Assembly (NCBI GenBank): GCA_009787025.1
Contig: WRGT01000062.1
Span: 1 to 41,833 of the forward strand
DNA: 41,833 nt
Source: Spirochaetota bacterium
Lineage (GTDB): Bacteria; Spirochaetota; UBA4802; UBA5550
Direction: 5' to 3'
Positions 21,313 to 36,284 of the stretch are shown here, piece by piece (position 1 is the first letter of the stretch; each line of letters begins with the position of its first letter). Under the pieces are notes generated by a model. That model saw only the letters and a list, made by a program, of their open reading frames with translations. It was not told where the DNA came from and did not search any database. Both the position numbers and the translations under genes were made by a program.

Positions 21313-21699
21313 ATGAATATAAAATCAAAATATTGGATAGAAATAGCCGATTACGATATCGAAACAGCAAAGGCAATGCTTATAACAAACCGTTTTTTGT
21401 ATGTTGGTTTTATGTGTCACCAAGCGATTGAGAAGACAATTAAAGCCTATTACTGTTCGAAAAATAATGATACTCCGCCCTTCACACACAATTTGAAGAC
21501 TTTAGCAGAACGGTGCGATTTGTTGTCTCTTTTTTCCGATGAGCAACTTGATTTTATTGAAGAATTACTACCTATGAATATTGAAGCAAGATATCCCACA
21601 CGCAAGGAGGAAATTTTCAAATTGCTCACTCATCAAAAATGTGATGAAATCATAAAACAAACGGAGTCTTTATGTCAATGGATCAAACAACGGCTTTAG
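21313..21699 (+). CDS. HEPN-domain protein of a HEPN/MNT pair
   Basis: This 128-residue all-helical protein is of the small HEPN family that accompanies minimal nucleotidyltransferases (HI0074-like). Family marks are KYWIEIADYDIETAKAML, MCHQAIEKTIKAYYC, FTHNLKTLAERC and EARYPTRKEE. The R-x4-6-H motif of RNase-type HEPN toxins is not visible, so this looks like the non-RNase partner class, or its activity is atypical. The frame overlaps the MNT gene by 28 bp, with the MNT ribosome site inside the HEPN coding region, so the two are co-translated. The ATG at 21313 has only a weak purine stretch upstream. Toxin-antitoxin behaviour is known for some HEPN/MNT pairs and is inferred here. Confidence 0.88.
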   Translation: MNIKSKYWIEIADYDIETAKAMLITNRFLYVGFMCHQAIEKTIKAYYCSKNNDTPPFTHNLKTLAERCDLLSLFSDEQLDFIEELLPMNIEARYPTRKEEIFKLLTHQKCDEIIKQTESLCQWIKQRL

Positions 21700-21977
21700 A
21701 ACACGCAAAACGCTATGCAAAGCTTGTTTTCGAGGAATTATCGCCTTGCAAAGTAGTTTTATTTGGTTCGCTGGCAAACGGAAATTTCAATGAAAACAGC
21801 GATATCGATATTGCCGTTATCAAAGATATTTTGGATGAAAACTATTGGGAATTATCCAAAAAACTTAATCGTCTCACGCGTAATATCGACAATCGCATTG
21901 AGCCTGTTCTTCTGGAAACCAAAGATGATCCAAGTGGCTTTCTAACAACTATTCTGAAATTTGGAATCGAATTGTGA
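21672..21977 (+). CDS. Minimal nucleotidyltransferase (MNT) of a HEPN/MNT pair
   Basis: This 101-residue protein is a stand-alone nucleotidyltransferase domain of the Pol-beta superfamily. The catalytic signature G-S-x10-D-x-D is complete in FGSLANGNFNENSDIDIAV, with a later acidic position in RIEPVLLE that may supply the third carboxylate. In characterised systems the MNT protein adds AMP groups to its HEPN partner and neutralises it; that chemistry is inferred here. The ATG at 21672 has GGAG five bases upstream, inside the HEPN gene; a second ATG lies two codons further. The gene ends 100 bp before uvrD and is the last gene of the accessory island. Confidence 0.88.
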   Translation: MSMDQTTALEHAKRYAKLVFEELSPCKVVLFGSLANGNFNENSDIDIAVIKDILDENYWELSKKLNRLTRNIDNRIEPVLLETKDDPSGFLTTILKFGIEL

Positions 21978-24406: not shown

Positions 24407-25693
24407 TTAAGACATTAAAGGGGGCTGCCCGTCGTTAAGTATAATATCCTCTATCCCTAAGTTTAAATTATTAAATAGATTTGGAAACTCACATTGATTA
24501 TTTATATGCTTTGAAATACACGCTGCTATATTAATCAGCATACTGTCGCTTAAATGTTTTTCAGCGCTTTCTATAAACGCATTGAGCAAGCCGGGGAGAA
24601 TCGATAAGTATCCCGTATCTTCAATTTTAATTAATTCGCGTACACCCCTTGCCTCTAAACTCTTTGCATCGGCAAAATCATCAGTTATGCCGGAAATAAT
24701 TATTTGCCCGGCTCTAAAGCTGTTAATATAATCATAGGATATTTTTTCGTCCATTATCATTAAAATATCAGAATTAGAGATTACGTTTTCAATTGTAGTA
24801 GCAAGACCCTTTCTATTTTCAAATAACATCATTCGCCGTTCATTGCTGTCATAACCTAATACTTTCATATATCCTGATTGTCCAAGTAGAGATGTGAGTT
24901 TTATTATACTATTGTTGAGTCCAATAATACCAATTGATGTTTCTGACGGAACTATATTATTCTTTTTCCCAAGTGTATTAATTATTGAGAGATAGTAAAT
25001 AGGATTTTCATTAAGCTCTTTGAATATAAGCGGAGTTGTAACTGAGTTTATAATATTTGCCAAAAGATAATCATCTTCATCATTATTCATAATCCGAATA
25101 CAGCAAAAATTCTGTTCTATACATTTAACAGCCTTAACCATATCTTCAATTGTGTTGTATTTAATAACTATTGGGAAAGAATTCTTTCCGGTAAATTTTT
25201 TTATAAGAGCTGAATCCCTTTCGGAATCTGCATACAAATGGTAGAAAAGCCTGTCATCCGCTTCATCTAAATTTTTTACACCGCTAATAAGAGCAATGCT
25301 GTTAAAACTGGCGCAATAATTCTTTTGTAAATCAGATTCAATCTTTTCATGTATAAGTTTATTTCCTCCAATCAGGGCTGTCTGTATATCATTAATATTT
25401 TCAATTTCAATCTTACTGGATGTTATTAATATACCGCCTTTAATTTTATCTTCAAGCATACTTGTAACAGTTACTTCTTTAAAGAATTCTATATTCTTTT
25501 TGAGTGTATCTACTAACCGAACAAGATCCTTTTTTACAGAATATACAATATCAATAGCATATTCTTCCCATTTACTGTCAGACTCTGTAAGATTGATAGT
25601 ATTAATATCCATGTTATATTTATATAAGGTTGCAATAAATTGAGGGAGTATATTTTTTTTCATCTTAATAGTCGCAGAGGCTATCAACTTCAT
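24407..25693 (-). CDS. ACT-domain protein with degenerate malic-enzyme-like body
   Basis: This 428-residue protein begins with an ACT-like regulatory domain (about residues 1-90, LIASATIKMKKNILPQFIAT). The remainder follows the order of bacterial NAD-malic enzymes when read side by side: NSIALISGV, SALIKKFTGKNSFPIVIKYN, EDMVKAVKCIEQNFCCIRI, TPLIFKELN, IGIIGLNNSIIKLTSLL with a Rossmann-like dinucleotide region, TIENVISNSDILMIMD, ILPGLLNAFIESAEKHL and DSMLINIAACIS. The catalytic pieces are gone: the HDDQHGT metal-binding motif reads FKELNEN, the LED metal motif is lost, and the catalytic lysine of the EGKA segment is replaced. It is thus probably not a malic enzyme but a regulatory or binding relative. 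The ATG at 25693 has AGGGGA upstream. It is the distal gene of a minus-strand group with the flavoprotein and PIN-TRAM genes. Confidence 0.65.
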   Translation of the reverse strand: MKLIASATIKMKKNILPQFIATLYKYNMDINTINLTESDSKWEEYAIDIVYSVKKDLVRLVDTLKKNIEFFKEVTVTSMLEDKIKGGILITSSKIEIENINDIQTALIGGNKLIHEKIESDLQKNYCASFNSIALISGVKNLDEADDRLFYHLYADSERDSALIKKFTGKNSFPIVIKYNTIEDMVKAVKCIEQNFCCIRIMNNDEDDYLLANIINSVTTPLIFKELNENPIYYLSIINTLGKKNNIVPSETSIGIIGLNNSIIKLTSLLGQSGYMKVLGYDSNERRMMLFENRKGLATTIENVISNSDILMIMDEKISYDYINSFRAGQIIISGITDDFADAKSLEARGVRELIKIEDTGYLSILPGLLNAFIESAEKHLSDSMLINIAACISKHINNQCEFPNLFNNLNLGIEDIILNDGQPPLMS

Positions 25694-25744: not shown

Positions 25745-26298
25745 TTAAATTGAATATTTTTTACCAAGCATATGGCAGCTTTCTAATATATCGGAAGGAA
25801 TTGTATCTATATAATCACAATTTTTTAGCAGGATACTTTCATTTATATCAAATTCGGCATTTATAGTATTAAAAAAATGTTTAACGCCTGTAAGAACACT
25901 GCAAAAAATATCCCCATAGTCTGATCCGGCAGTGGAAAAAAAAAGCCCCTTTTTCTTTTCATGGTAATATTTTTTTTCTTCTCCTCCCAAAGTAACTGGC
26001 ATCTGTCAATGATTGTTTTTAAAGGAGCCGGAAAATGTGAAAAATAAAGTGGTGATGATACTGAGATAATATCCGCTTCTTTAATTAACCTGTAAATATC
26101 TGACATTTCATCATTTAAATTACACTGTAGTTTAGAAGCGCAATAACCGCATCCCATACATGGATTTATTTTGGTTTGATATGCATTAATAATATCCACC
26201 TTGAATCCATTTAAAATAAACGGATTCAAAAATTCATTTTGCAATTTTGACGATATACTCTCTTTACGCGGACTGCCTGTAAAAGCTAAAAGGTTCAA
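25745..26298 (-). pseudogene. NADPH-dependent FMN reductase-like flavoprotein with a frameshift
   Basis: Two overlapping frames together make one flavodoxin-fold protein of about 184 residues. The first, from 26298, starts at a TTG and carries LLAFTGSPRKESISSKLQNE (flavin phosphate loop), CMGCGYCASKLQC (a Cys cluster like that of iron-sulfur flavoproteins) and SSPLYFSHFPAPLKTIIDR. The second continues with GLFFSTAGSDYGDIFCSVL and ends LGKKYSI at 25745. The switch is at an A8 run on the coding strand (25970-25977): one A fewer joins them as WEEKKYYHEKKKG. It is either a recent inactivating indel, a phase-variable or slippage site, or a sequencing error in a homopolymer. The start follows the PIN-TRAM stop by one base, so the gene is translationally coupled. 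Confidence 0.75.
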
Positions 26299-26299
26299 A

Positions 26300-27301
26300 T
26301 CACTCTTCCTTCAATTTTGTAAAAATCATCCGCCCTGCTGTAGTTTGGAGAACAGAGGTAACAATAACATCAACTTCGTCATTCATCCTCCTTCTGCCGT
26401 TTTCAACTACAACCATTGTCCCATCATCAAGATATCCAATAGCTTGATTTGAATCTTTACCCTCTTTAACTAACAGTACGTTCATTTCTTCGCCGGGTAG
26501 AACAATCGGTTTAAGAGAATTGGATAAAAGATTTATGTTGAGAACCTCAACTCCATGAAATTCAGCTACCTTGTTAAGATTAAAATCGTTTGTTATTACT
26601 TTAGCCTTCATGACCTTAGCTAATTGAACAAGTTTGGAATCTACTTCGGGAATATCCTTAAAATCCATATCGGATATTTTAACCATAATAGACTGGTCTT
26701 TCTGCATTTTATTGAGGATATCAAGTCCTCTGCGGCCTCTGTTTCTTTTAATTGAATCGGCAGAGTCTGCTATCATTTGAAGTTCATTGAGTACAAAGTT
26801 TGGGATAACAAGTATCCCTTCAAGAAAACCCGTATCACAGATGTCTGCAATCCTGCCGTCTATTATTACACTTGTATCAAGGATTTTATATGGTATCTTT
26901 ATATCGGAATCTTTTGCCTCTGTTGTAATTATCTTATCAAGAAAACTTATATCTTCATGATTAATTAAAAAAAACATCATTATTGCAAACCCAAGTATAT
27001 GGTAGAGCAACGGCTTAATAATACTTGAATACTGCTTTACAATATCTAAATCAAATGAATCGAGCCCTTTAACAAACATATGAGCCAGAACTAATCCAAA
27101 AAGAAGACCGGTAATAGCAGCAAGCAACTGCCTTGACTGAAAACTATGAGAAAAATATTCTATTACTATTATTATACCTAATGCAATTATACCTGATATA
27201 ATTCCTGAAATTATAACAGCCTTTAATGAATATGAATAAAATAATGTTGTAAATAAAATTGATGTTGCTATAAAAACTGTTCTATAGATTATTATTAACA
27301 T
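26300..27301 (-). CDS. Membrane PIN-TRAM domain protein (YacL-like)
   Basis: This 333-residue protein has four N-terminal transmembrane helices (about residues 1-125), a PIN nuclease domain (about 145-265) and a C-terminal TRAM RNA-binding domain (about 270-333). PIN acidic residues are in [25 protein letters not shown], and DSKLVQLA with [12 protein letters not shown]. The TRAM part is [20 protein letters not shown] and onward. This matches the YacL family, found next to CarD in many Gram-positives and spirochaetes; an RNase activity is expected but the substrate is unknown. I chose the ATG at 27301 (GGAG eight bases upstream) over an ATG 14 codons upstream. The gene lies 115 bp downstream of carD, on the same strand. 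Confidence 0.9.
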
Positions 27302-27416
27302 AAAAATTACTCCAGATATAAAACTATAATAAATATTATACAAAATAGAAGTCTTTATTGAAGATGTACAAATTCTATAATTGGTTTTTTGCTAAGAAAT
27401 TATTCTTTCTTAAAAA

Positions 27417-27911
27417 TTATTCTTCCTTAGATCCGGAAGAAAGAGCTTCGGATACAATATTCCCCGCTTCATCAATTGGAATACTTTTTGACATTGCTAC
27501 TTCATAAGTAATCAACTGATAAGCATTTTCGTAAAGTTTCCTCTCCATAATGGAAAGTTCCTTTTCGGTTCCTCTTTTAAAAAGATCTCTGGCAACCTCT
27601 GCAACCTCATAGATTGAGCCGCTCTTGACTTTGTCTATGTTATTTTGGTATCTTAACTTCCAGTCCTCTTCAATAGCTTCAGCTTCGGTTGATAAGATTG
27701 CTATAACTTTTTTAATATCTTTCTTGGGGATTATACCTCTTATACCTATCTCTTTTGCATTATTAACCGGTATCATAACCTTCATACCATTGCTGATGAT
27801 AGTAATCATATAATATTCATTTCTCTTACCAAGAACAACCTTCTTTTCAATACCATCAATCTTGCCTACGCCATGCATGGGATATACAATTTTATCACCA
27901 ACTTTAAACAT
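27417..27911 (-). CDS. CarD/CdnL-type RNA polymerase-binding regulator
   Basis: This 164-residue protein has the N-terminal Tudor-like RNAP-interacting domain of CarD (MFKVGDKIVYPMHGVGKIDG, then YYMITIISNGMKVMIPVNNA) and the C-terminal helical DNA-contacting domain (RYQNNIDKVKSGSIYEVAEV, LSIMERKLYENAYQLITYE). In other bacteria CarD/CdnL binds the RNA polymerase beta subunit and stabilises the open complex at rRNA and other promoters. The length is normal. The ATG at 27911 has AGGAG upstream. It sits 78 bp after PBP1A and 115 bp before the PIN-TRAM gene, on the same strand; pairing with the PIN-TRAM protein recurs in other bacteria. Confidence 0.93.
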   Translation of the reverse strand: MFKVGDKIVYPMHGVGKIDGIEKKVVLGKRNEYYMITIISNGMKVMIPVNNAKEIGIRGIIPKKDIKKVIAILSTEAEAIEEDWKLRYQNNIDKVKSGSIYEVAEVARDLFKRGTEKELSIMERKLYENAYQLITYEVAMSKSIPIDEAGNIVSEALSSGSKEE

Positions 27912-27989: not shown

Positions 27990-30380
27990 CTATTTATCCG
28001 ACAACAATTCTTTTTCTATATATCTGTCATGAACAGTACCCATCTCGTAATGGATTCCGTCACAAACCTTTGATGCCCCGCTCCCTTTTAAACCGATCCC
28101 GCCTGAAATTTTATGACAATTTGGACCGGGTATTAAACCTGTGTACCAGCATACGCCCTTACTTTCAATTTGATCAGGTTTTGGATAGAATACCGGATTA
28201 GGCATACCATTATAAATCTCTTTCATATAGCGTGCCCAAATAGGCGCTGCAAGACTGGCTGCTGCCTGACCTTTCCCAAGTGACATGAACGATCTGTCAT
28301 AGCCTAACCACACAATTGCTGCAATATCAGGCGTATATCCGCAAAACCATGCATCTGTCCAATTCTGTGTAGTCCCTGTTTTCCCTGCCGCGCTTTTTGT
28401 AAAACCAACTTCTCTTCGTATTGAATGAGATGCAGTTCCGCCGTCAACTACTCCCTTCATCAACTCTGTCATTATATATGCTACCTGTTCGGGGATGACC
28501 TGAATTGTGCCGTCAATCTCTTTAGCGGCAATAATATTCCCCACTTCCTCTTCTATATTAGCAAGCTCATTACCATCTCTGTCAATAATATAGCGAATTG
28601 CAAATGGTATAACATCACGACCCCTGTTTCCATAAATTGCATAAGCAGTAGCCATTTCAAGGGGAGTAACCTCTGCCGTACCAAGAGCCAATGCAGGACC
28701 CGGAGTAAATCGCGATTCGGAAACCTTTAACATCTTTGAAGCATAATCAATTACTGCATCTGCTCCGGCAAGATCAAAAACTCTTACTGCTATGATATTT
28801 ATTGACATTGCAAGCGCCCTTTGAACGCTGACCATTCCTGAATATTCACCTTCGTAATTTCCGGGCGACCATGTAGATCCGGCAGCATCCACATCAACAA
28901 TAGGACCGTCGAAGAGAACGGTTGCCGTACTAATAACTTTATTATTGATAGCAGAGCCATAAACAAACGGCTTAAACGCCGAACCGGGCTGACGCCTTGC
29001 CTGAACAGCCCTGTTGTACTGATTTGATACCTCAAACTCGGAACCGCCGACCATTGACGTAATATAGCCTGTTGGAGGTTCCACTGCAATAAAAGCGCCT
29101 TCAACCTTCATATTTGATGAGATAGTCGAAATCTGTGTTCTAAAAGCCTCAATGACATGATGATCCCTTGGAGAACCGGAAAAGAGAGTCAAAATTTCTA
29201 TAGAATCGACAAGTTGGTCAACCATATATTTCTTAAACTGAGTATCCAAGTCATTTTTTACGATAACCGACGGAAGACTGAATATCATACTCAGAGCCCT
29301 GTATGCTCCGAACAGACTTCCGTCAACGGAACTATTATATATAGCATTCATTCTGCTTGAGTATTTATCCTGTTCAATAAGACCTTCGCTTAAATATTTC
29401 TGAGCCGCCCTCTGCCTTTTAAGGTCAAGTGTAGTATATACGGAAAGACCCTCATTATACATTACGTCTTTGCCAAAACGCGCATCTAATATCTGTCTGA
29501 CATAGTCTGTAAAATAGGGCGCGCTGTCCTCGTCTTTGGATATTGCCGTCTTAGTAGGAAATTCCATCCTTAATGATTCGATATAATTTGGCCAGAATGT
29601 GTTATAAATTTCATCGGAACGCTCTTTTGTCAAATATCCCTCTTTTACCATTCTATTAAGCGTATCTAAATTTTTTCTTGCAGCCTCTTTTGGATCAACT
29701 ATGGGAGAATATCCGGACGGTTGTGACGGAAGCGCAGAGAGCACACTACCCTCTATAAGCGATAAGTGCTTTACATCTTTCTCAAAGAAAAACTTTGAAG
29801 CGGTAGATATGCCATGACATCCATGACCAAGATATATCTGATTAAAATACATCTCTAAAATTTCTTCTTTGGAAAACTTCTTTTCTATTTGAAGGGCAAG
29901 CACAGCTTCAAGCGCCTTGCGGGCAAATGTTCTTTCACTCTCGGTAAAGAGCTGCTTTGCCAGCTGCTGCGTAATGGTTGAACCTCCTTGGCGGACAGTA
30001 GGTCTTCCCGATTTAATTGAAGCAGCGACATTTTTCACCATTGCTCTGGCAATAGCCATCGGATTTATACCGAAATGCTCATAGAAAGCTTTATCCTCTT
30101 GAGCTAAAAATGCATTAATCAACGTATGGGGAAGTTTATCAAATGAAACCAAATCCCGTTTTTGCTGGTATAATTCTGCAATAAGTTCGCCGTTTATATC
30201 ATATAGTCTGGTTGGAATACTCGGCTGAAATTTTTTGAGATTGTGAATTCCCGAATAGTTTTTTATCTCCGATGTTATATATCCGAATATTAAACCGCCA
30301 ATTACTGAAAAAACCGCTATTAAAGTAAGAGCAATTTTTTCAAGTTTTAATATTTTTTCTTTTATATCCATAATTTCCAT
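27990..30380 (-). CDS. mrcA: Bifunctional penicillin-binding protein 1A
   Basis: This 796-residue class A penicillin-binding protein polymerises and cross-links peptidoglycan in the periplasm. It has a short cytoplasmic tail, one transmembrane anchor (about residues 14-36), a GT51 glycosyltransferase domain with the catalytic Glu in AQEDKAFYEHFG, RQGGSTITQQLAKQLF and KKFSKEEILEMYFNQIYLG, then a transpeptidase domain with the nucleophile Ser467 in PGSAFKPF, SxN near residue 525 (MSINI) and KTGTTQNWTDAWF near residue 666. A short Cys-containing tail (CWYTGLIPGPNC) follows. The start is at 30380, or three codons later at 30371 where GGA is better spaced. The small membrane protein gene at 30438 is immediately upstream. 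Confidence 0.93.
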   Translation of the reverse strand: MEIMDIKEKILKLEKIALTLIAVFSVIGGLIFGYITSEIKNYSGIHNLKKFQPSIPTRLYDINGELIAELYQQKRDLVSFDKLPHTLINAFLAQEDKAFYEHFGINPMAIARAMVKNVAASIKSGRPTVRQGGSTITQQLAKQLFTESERTFARKALEAVLALQIEKKFSKEEILEMYFNQIYLGHGCHGISTASKFFFEKDVKHLSLIEGSVLSALPSQPSGYSPIVDPKEAARKNLDTLNRMVKEGYLTKERSDEIYNTFWPNYIESLRMEFPTKTAISKDEDSAPYFTDYVRQILDARFGKDVMYNEGLSVYTTLDLKRQRAAQKYLSEGLIEQDKYSSRMNAIYNSSVDGSLFGAYRALSMIFSLPSVIVKNDLDTQFKKYMVDQLVDSIEILTLFSGSPRDHHVIEAFRTQISTISSNMKVEGAFIAVEPPTGYITSMVGGSEFEVSNQYNRAVQARRQPGSAFKPFVYGSAINNKVISTATVLFDGPIVDVDAAGSTWSPGNYEGEYSGMVSVQRALAMSINIIAVRVFDLAGADAVIDYASKMLKVSESRFTPGPALALGTAEVTPLEMATAYAIYGNRGRDVIPFAIRYIIDRDGNELANIEEEVGNIIAAKEIDGTIQVIPEQVAYIMTELMKGVVDGGTASHSIRREVGFTKSAAGKTGTTQNWTDAWFCGYTPDIAAIVWLGYDRSFMSLGKGQAAASLAAPIWARYMKEIYNGMPNPVFYPKPDQIESKGVCWYTGLIPGPNCHKISGGIGLKGSGASKVCDGIHYEMGTVHDRYIEKELLSDK

Positions 30381-34983: not shown

Positions 34984-34997
34984 TTAAGGAATAATTG

Positions 34998-36284
34998 ATG
35001 AAAGATATAAAAAAAACCTATAGTACAATACTCGACGATAATTTCCCGAATGAAATGACAATAACTTTCGGCGATCAGAAATTACATTATAGAAAAAAAA
35101 TCTGGAAGATCAATGATGACGGCGTACAGGTTGAACGGGGTTTAAGATATGGAGAAAATCCAAGCCAGGAGGCAGCGATGTATGAACTCGTTAATGGAAA
35201 TCTTCTCCTTGCCGGGTGTGAATTTATAGGACATGGCAACTCTCTTGTAAGCGGTATTGACGAGAATATGCTTATCCAGTTTGGAAAACATCCCGGCAAA
35301 ATCAATCTCACCGATATTGACAATAGCCTTAATATATTAAAATACCTTATGGATAAAACAGCGGCTGTTATTGTGAAGCATAATAATCCGTGCGGTGTTG
35401 CATATGCGCCTACAATTGCAGAAGCATTTAATAAAGCCTATAGAGCAGACAGGATTGCAGCATTTGGCGGATGCTTAGCTTTAAACAAAGTATGCGATAA
35501 GGCAACAGCCGAATTGATTAACAATTACTATCTTGAGGTAGTTGTTGCCCCCGAGTATGACGGCGAAGCCATTAATATATTAAAGAATAAAAAAAATTTA
35601 CGAATTGTAAAAATACCAAGAATTGACCGCCTTGCAGATTTCCGCAATGCTGTTTTCCCTGATTTTAAATCTCTGATTGACGGAGGGATAATTGTTCAGC
35701 AATCTTCAACTACTAAGATAAGATCAAAAGATGATCTGCTCCCCGCTGAGACCGAATATAAAGGGGAAAAGTATTCCATTGAAAGAAAACCCACAGATAG
35801 AGAATTTGATGATATGCTATTCGGCTGGTATGTTGAGCAGGGCGTTACATCAAACTCTGTTTTATATGTAAAAGACGGAGTAACCGTAGGGATTGGTACG
35901 GGAGAACAGGACAGAGTAGGCGTTGCTGAAATAGCAATATATAAAGCCTGCACAAAATATGCCGATCTTGTATGCTATGACAGGTATGGAATTTCATATA
36001 AAGAACTAACACTGTCAATTCAAAAAGGGGAGAGAAATATATCCGATAAAAATATGATTGATGAAGAGACCGCTGCAGCAAAGGGCGGACTTAAAGGGGC
36101 TGTAGCAATATCAGATGCCTTTTTCCCATTCAGAGATGGTGTTGATATTATTATTGAACATGGGATTTCCGCAATATTGCAACCCGGAGGATCTATAAGG
36201 GATTTTGAATCTATCCAAGCCTGCAATGAAGCAAACCCTAAGGTAACAATGATGTTTACAGGCGAAAGGGCTTTTAAGCACTGA
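34998..36284 (+). CDS. Stand-alone AICAR transformylase (PurH C-terminal type)
   Basis: This 428-residue cytoplasmic enzyme matches the transformylase half of PurH, which uses 10-formyl-THF to convert AICAR to FAICAR in purine synthesis. Visible marks are YGENPSQEAAMYE, the catalytic KHNNPCGVAYAP, RIAAFGGCLALN, YVKDGVTVGIGTGEQDRV, KGGLKGAVAISDAFFPFRDG, ILQPGGSIRD and the C-terminal MMFTGERAFKH. The MGS-type IMP cyclohydrolase domain (about 200 residues) that normally precedes it is absent, so IMP cyclohydrolase must be encoded elsewhere. The start is the ATG at 34998 with AAGGA upstream; a TTG one codon earlier is also in frame. It is the last gene of the amidase-HtrA group and converges with the gene ending at 36290. 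Confidence 0.92.
   Translation: MKDIKKTYSTILDDNFPNEMTITFGDQKLHYRKKIWKINDDGVQVERGLRYGENPSQEAAMYELVNGNLLLAGCEFIGHGNSLVSGIDENMLIQFGKHPGKINLTDIDNSLNILKYLMDKTAAVIVKHNNPCGVAYAPTIAEAFNKAYRADRIAAFGGCLALNKVCDKATAELINNYYLEVVVAPEYDGEAINILKNKKNLRIVKIPRIDRLADFRNAVFPDFKSLIDGGIIVQQSSTTKIRSKDDLLPAETEYKGEKYSIERKPTDREFDDMLFGWYVEQGVTSNSVLYVKDGVTVGIGTGEQDRVGVAEIAIYKACTKYADLVCYDRYGISYKELTLSIQKGERNISDKNMIDEETAAAKGGLKGAVAISDAFFPFRDGVDIIIEHGISAILQPGGSIRDFESIQACNEANPKVTMMFTGERAFKH

Follow-up and report, generated by a model that had tools for sequence, protein, structure and literature searches.

The window analyzed here, a whole stretch of 41,833 nucleotides from a Spirochaetota bacterium (contig WRGT01000062.1), carries a gene for a pseudoenzyme that derives from malic enzyme and begins with an ACT-like domain (Table 1). 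Homology, position in the tree and loss of the catalytic and metal-binding residues show that this protein is a pseudoenzyme which arose when a malic enzyme with an ACT domain and a shortened Rossmann domain was duplicated. It is also shown to be a maintained, working protein by the purifying selection acting on it, its near-universal presence in the order, its operon position and its new invariant residues. The family to which it belongs is, on the comparisons below, of spirochaete occurrence and malic enzyme descent, and is unnamed in Pfam and NCBIfam. As the catalytic and metal residues are lost, oxidative decarboxylation of malate by the window protein is almost certainly impossible, and a role as metabolite sensor is our best guess. 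The host genome measures 1.66 Mb and is 73.6% complete. A genome of the same genus (G001) holds a copy 68% identical to the window protein, and a scan of the genome contigs of close relatives matched a single locus, in HGW-Spirochaetae-5.

Table 1. Positions in the window of the pseudoenzyme gene, its domains and altered sites, and its upstream neighbors.
Feature	Position	Strand	Basis
ACT + malic-enzyme-derived pseudoenzyme, 428 aa	24407..25693	minus	ORF, ATG start; family profile; AF2 and Foldseek
ACT-like domain, residues 1-77	25463..25693	minus	AF2 topology; hhalign against ACT of active relatives
Malic enzyme N-terminal-like domain, residues 79-248	24950..25459	minus	hhalign against active ACT malic enzymes
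Short Rossmann domain and C-terminal helices, residues 249-428	24407..24949	minus	hhalign against active ACT malic enzymes
E158-R159-D160, replacing catalytic E-G-K	25214..25222	minus	Alignment of 48 against 26
R200, two residues ahead of the lost metal ligand Glu	25094..25096	minus	Alignment
FKELNEN (224-230), replacing HDDQHGT; E229, acidic, where active enzymes have Gly	25004..25024	minus	Alignment
E292, newly fixed Glu following Rossmann strand 2 (FE..xGxA[TS])	24818..24820	minus	Alignment
Degraded nucleotide loop GLNNSI (258-263), replacing GxGxxG	24905..24922	minus	Alignment
NADPH-dependent FMN reductase, upstream, frameshifted	25745..26298	minus	PF03358, E 7.5e-17 (N-terminal part); two overlapping frames
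PIN/TRAM protein	26300..27343	minus	Pfam PIN and TRAM; same-strand upstream neighbor in most relatives
CarD-type transcription regulator	27417..27911	minus	Pfam CarD_C, E 7.6e-26; conserved neighbor
Putative class A penicillin-binding protein (PBP1A-like)	27990..30380	minus	ORF of 796 aa, named by sequence inspection; conserved neighbor

On its own, the window protein reached the threshold of none of the families in Pfam or NCBIfam, and six of its relatives compared with the malic enzyme families gave sub-threshold matches or none. As a single query against the PDB, its best match was weak (malic enzyme 2a9f, E 0.012, residues 80-277). Detection became clear with a profile (A1) built from 39 homologues of the same order as the window, hereafter clade I. 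In hhalign, A1 aligned with a spirochaete malic enzyme profile at 99.7% (E 1.4e-25) over 354 columns, and hmmsearch of A1 on the PDB recovered the malic enzymes 2a9f (8e-14) and 1ww8 (2e-11). When the domains were aligned separately with active ACT malic enzymes, the malic-N domain gave a probability of 98.3 (E 1.1e-14), and the Rossmann domain with the C-terminus 99.3 (E 4.5e-20). Since the malic-N domain gives a match by itself, a generic, Rossmann-only similarity was ruled out. A weak hit to the Pfam family DUF7903 (E 0.043) was taken as chance. The AF2 model of the window protein (pLDDT 87.6, pTM 0.82) led to the same family, as the top 44 Foldseek matches in the PDB by E-value were all malic enzymes, with TM-scores mostly of 0.5-0.66. 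The sequence-only reading of this gene had proposed a malic enzyme fold throughout, down to a C-terminal LPG(L/I) motif, and the profile comparison and structure prediction that it had suggested bear this out in all domains and beyond a generic Rossmann region. The motif itself is retained in clade I (Pro in 35/39, Gly in 34/39).

The active site was compared in an alignment of 48 pseudoenzymes (39 of clade I and 9 of a second group, clade II) and 26 bona fide malic enzymes. The catalytic tyrosine of YTPGVA occurs in none of the 48 and in all 26 active sequences; it is L, V, I or F throughout clade I (39/39), and Leu107 in the window protein. At the catalytic lysine of EGK, a motif intact in 26/26 active enzymes, every pseudoenzyme has aspartate (39/39 and 9/9), which is Asp160 in the window. 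The Glu of LED, first metal ligand, is absent from 48/48 and present in 26/26; the adjoining Asp is kept in 3/48, and the pair reads Met202/Asn203 in the window protein. Also, the second Asp of HDD, another metal ligand, is kept in only 4/48, most sequences having E. Of these five residues (two catalytic, three metal ligands), at most one is retained in any of the 48 sequences. The malate-binding asparagine motifs are affected as well, the first Asn (NP.PE) being deleted in 38/39 and the NN before FPG replaced. In human ME2, Glu255, Asp256 and Asp279, the equivalents of the lost ligands, are needed for metal binding and catalysis (PMC10202922). The replacement of HDDQHGT, of the LED ligand and of the catalytic lysine, noticed initially in this one sequence, therefore extends to the homologues, and the possibility that these retain the catalytic residues was ruled out by the 48-sequence comparison. 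Given this, and a similarity that spans all domains, the designation as pseudoenzyme stands: the homologues also lack the catalytic residues and are under purifying selection.

The N-terminal part had been read as an ACT domain, and the model topology agrees with this. Residues 1-77 of the AF2 model run E3-12, H16-25, E29-38, E42-51, H54-66 and E71-77 (block pLDDT 84-95), that is, in the beta-alpha-beta-beta-alpha-beta order of an ACT domain. Alignment with the ACT domains of active relatives gave an hhalign probability of 90.6 (E 1.3e-6); Pfam ACT did not match the window protein. The loop glycine of the ACT relatives is Gly in 24/39 clade I sequences, and Asn14 in the window protein. An ACT-like N-terminus is thus supported by the predicted fold topology and, more weakly, by sequence.

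In place of the lost site, a new set of residues has become fixed. It starts from Glu158, the Glu of EGK, which is unchanged and invariant (39/39 in clade I, 9/9 in clade II). The next position, Gly in active enzymes, is R in 32 and K in 5 of the 39 clade I sequences, and Arg in all nine of clade II. Position 200 is Arg in 38/39 and 9/9, whereas the 26 active enzymes have N, K or Q. Position 229 is E or D in 39/39 of clade I, E in 9/9 of clade II, and G in 26/26 active sequences. A further glutamate, E292, is found in 39/39 and 9/9, where active enzymes mostly have T, A or others. Together, E158, R159, D160, R200, E229 and E292 show little or no variation across two clades of low overall identity.

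The nucleotide loop has followed another course. In clade I, the first Gly of GxGxxG is kept in 39/39, the second in 0/39 (D, N, T, E or S instead), and the third position is mostly S or A; at the start of the following helix, a new Arg appears in 37/39, with Lys in the window protein. The Asp of Rossmann strand 2, D282, is kept in 38/39 of clade I and 9/9 of clade II, and the second Gly in 6/9 of clade II. Binding of NAD(H), which the sequence-only reading had considered for this protein, is weakened for the clade of the window; ordinary NAD binding by the window protein appears doubtful because the second Gly is never Gly in clade I. For clade II, it would be possible.

Of 59 relatives, 42 carry the family, and the ORF is nearly always intact. 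When only genomes with a completeness of 90% or more are counted, 28 of 30 in the order have it, versus 10 of the same 30 with a Malic_M match; the pseudoenzyme is therefore independent of a malic enzyme partner. That it might be the regulatory subunit in a hetero-oligomer with malic enzyme was also considered and is unlikely, as in most genomes of the order the family occurs with no detectable malic enzyme. Searches with PF03949 and PF00390 found no malic enzyme in the window's own incomplete genome. Nonsynonymous rates lie far below synonymous ones in the three close pairs compared, with dN and dS of 0.020 and 0.306 (L004/L005), 0.102 and 0.694 (L023/L029), and 0.199 and 1.178 (L013/L016).

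A search of 296 Spirochaetota genomes revealed clade II (group f34: L073-L080, L091) and also, in family f22, active malic enzymes that combine an ACT domain with the same short Rossmann domain. In the tree, clades I and II were each recovered at 100/99 and joined at 100/100, and the ACT short-Rossmann malic enzymes were their closest relatives (100/97). As the branches in this grouping are long (1.1-1.6 changes per site), the joining of I and II leans also on the shared replacement residues. Two genomes (G013 and G027) carry both the pseudoenzyme and the active ACT enzyme, as expected from duplication.

In the order of the window, the pseudoenzyme gene holds a constant place. An automatic count found PBP1A-like, CarD and/or PIN/TRAM genes upstream on the same strand at 23/27 loci. 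Two more (L103, L107), missed by this count since an antisense ORF was picked, show the same gene order by coordinates, so that the pseudoenzyme follows pbp1A-carD-PIN/TRAM at 25/27 loci. An FMN reductase gene often lies in between, and is not always present. It is intact in the same-genus genome G001, and its frameshift in the window may reflect either genuine decay or a fault of the assembly. The neighborhood of clade II differs, with GDPD and CsgG/LpoB-like genes. A search of the literature gave nothing relevant on a spirochaete CarD operon.

Some other genes were observed around these loci. Directly downstream of the pseudoenzyme, in convergent orientation, most of the order has a lipoprotein that matches a Cache domain weakly (E 7e-4 to 9e-4; L098:10985-11752, L123:10332-11096 and equivalents); beside the window copy there is a UvrD/PcrA helicase, and this lipoprotein is absent. 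Elsewhere in the window, two small overlapping ORFs on the plus strand (21313-21699 and 21672-21977) resemble, by eye, a HEPN and MNT nucleotidyltransferase pair of toxin-antitoxin type. A plus-strand ORF of 429 aa (34995-36284) matches PF01808 (AICARFT_IMPCHas, E 1e-63), but only from position 74 of the profile onward, and is possibly a stand-alone AICAR transformylase.

Our leading proposal, to which we give about an even chance, is that the protein is a non-catalytic ligand sensor, with an anionic ligand in the old cleft and the ACT domain as second site or relay. The former active-site cleft would bind an anionic metabolite without metal by means of R159 and R200, to which E158, D160 and E229 would be the acidic partners in the cleft. 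Like substrate in malic enzymes, the bound ligand would draw the malic-N and Rossmann domains together and so close the cleft. The ACT domain may provide a second small-ligand site or relay the change across a dimer. In this way the pseudoenzyme would act as an allosteric metabolite sensor on a putative partner. The operon neighbors (cell wall, CarD, PIN/TRAM) point to no particular metabolite; an amino-acid ligand at the ACT domain of the window protein is possible. However, the conserved polar cluster would suit a new catalytic site equally well, and charged residues at former catalytic positions, near-invariant over two deep clades, are typical of such a site. The protein could then be a neofunctionalised enzyme with a metal-independent site made of E158/R159/D160, R200, E229 and possibly E292, whose substrate in another reaction would be an acid or an amino acid, and which may or may not use a nucleotide cofactor. 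The retention of D282 in both clades, and of the second Gly in most of clade II, also favors a new enzyme. Yet clade I has no cofactor-type Gly loop, no Cys, His, Lys or Tyr is fixed at the site, and the FMN reductase, itself inconstant, is the only conserved metabolic neighbor; we consider a new enzymatic activity possible, with the balance against it.

The same charged residues could have a purely structural meaning, with Arg-acid salt bridges locking the cleft and the protein serving solely as a dimeric platform to which others bind, perhaps one encoded in the CarD-PIN/TRAM operon. The replacement of the metal site by opposite charges in pairs, the conserved operon position and the loss of the nucleotide loop in clade I are in line with this. 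Against it, clade II has the same residues in a different neighborhood, and therefore the two clades have no operon partner in common; so strict a fixation of cleft residues would also be rare in scaffolds, and we judge a structural role unlikely. The retained fold, and the occurrence of the family where no malic enzyme was detected (the window's genome and G001), might suggest a malic or malolactic enzyme that works with the replacement residues. This is highly improbable, as the whole family has lost Tyr, Lys, the LED Glu and both asparagine motifs (NP and NN), with at most one of the five residues kept, and malic enzymes need the metal ligands for catalysis (PMC10202922). Decay of a pseudogene, or an accident of one genome, could be evoked by the frameshifted FMN reductase next to it in the window, but is refuted by the spread among relatives, nearly always with intact ORFs, and by the excess of synonymous over nonsynonymous change; the invariance of residues across 39 sequences also speaks against it, and we attach next to no weight to it.

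To go further than the sensor proposal, the family may be an ancient spirochaete invention that predates the split of two major groups, in which a Tyr-Lys-metal site was turned into a metal-free Glu-Arg-Asp / Arg / Glu site, and which would serve as a new enzyme or as the sensor in a regulatory circuit not yet described, beside carD and pbp1A in one order. We offer this wider scenario tentatively, as rather improbable in its entirety. Bacterial pseudoenzymes derived from dehydrogenases of central carbon metabolism have seldom been described, and our search of the literature found no account of a pseudoenzyme from malic enzyme, nor of an ACT malic-enzyme pseudoenzyme. Since this family is unnamed, near-universal in one order and sharply defined in its replacement site, it would give a clear example of how an active site is remade for a different use, and a candidate sensor in little-studied bacteria.

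Among known systems, an ACT domain ahead of a malic or malolactic enzyme is described for ACT_MalLac-Enz (CDD cd04887; Bacillus subtilis MleA/YqkJ type). Its members are presumed active, and their likeness to the pseudoenzyme, which is by description, serves as a lead only. The prokaryotic malic enzymes whose structures have been solved (2a9f, 1vl6, 5cee, 1ww8/2dvm, MaeB) have the fold in common with the window protein (Foldseek E 6e-17 to 5e-12, TM about 0.65) at 12-18% identity; the pseudoenzyme differs by its replaced active site and shorter Rossmann domain. To our knowledge, none of these enzymes has an ACT domain. Clade II shares with clade I both the losses and the E-R-D / R / E / E replacements, but, in addition to its other neighborhood, has GxGxxG or a near form in most members, and its N-terminal domain is ACT-like in predicted topology and not by sequence. 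Its model, of moderate confidence (pLDDT 72.6), also has malic enzymes as top PDB matches.

As for the ACT short-Rossmann malic enzymes of spirochaetes (L032, L033, L081-L089), Malic_M matches them in two pieces only, and the core of two of them (L032:3814-5109, L033:3603-4901) also matches 2-hydroxyacid dehydrogenases (PF02826). Their domain order is that of the pseudoenzyme (ACT, malic-N, short Rossmann, C-terminal helices). However, they hold the YTPGVA, EGK, LED, HDDQHGT, NP and NN motifs and GLGAAG, all of which the pseudoenzyme family is without.
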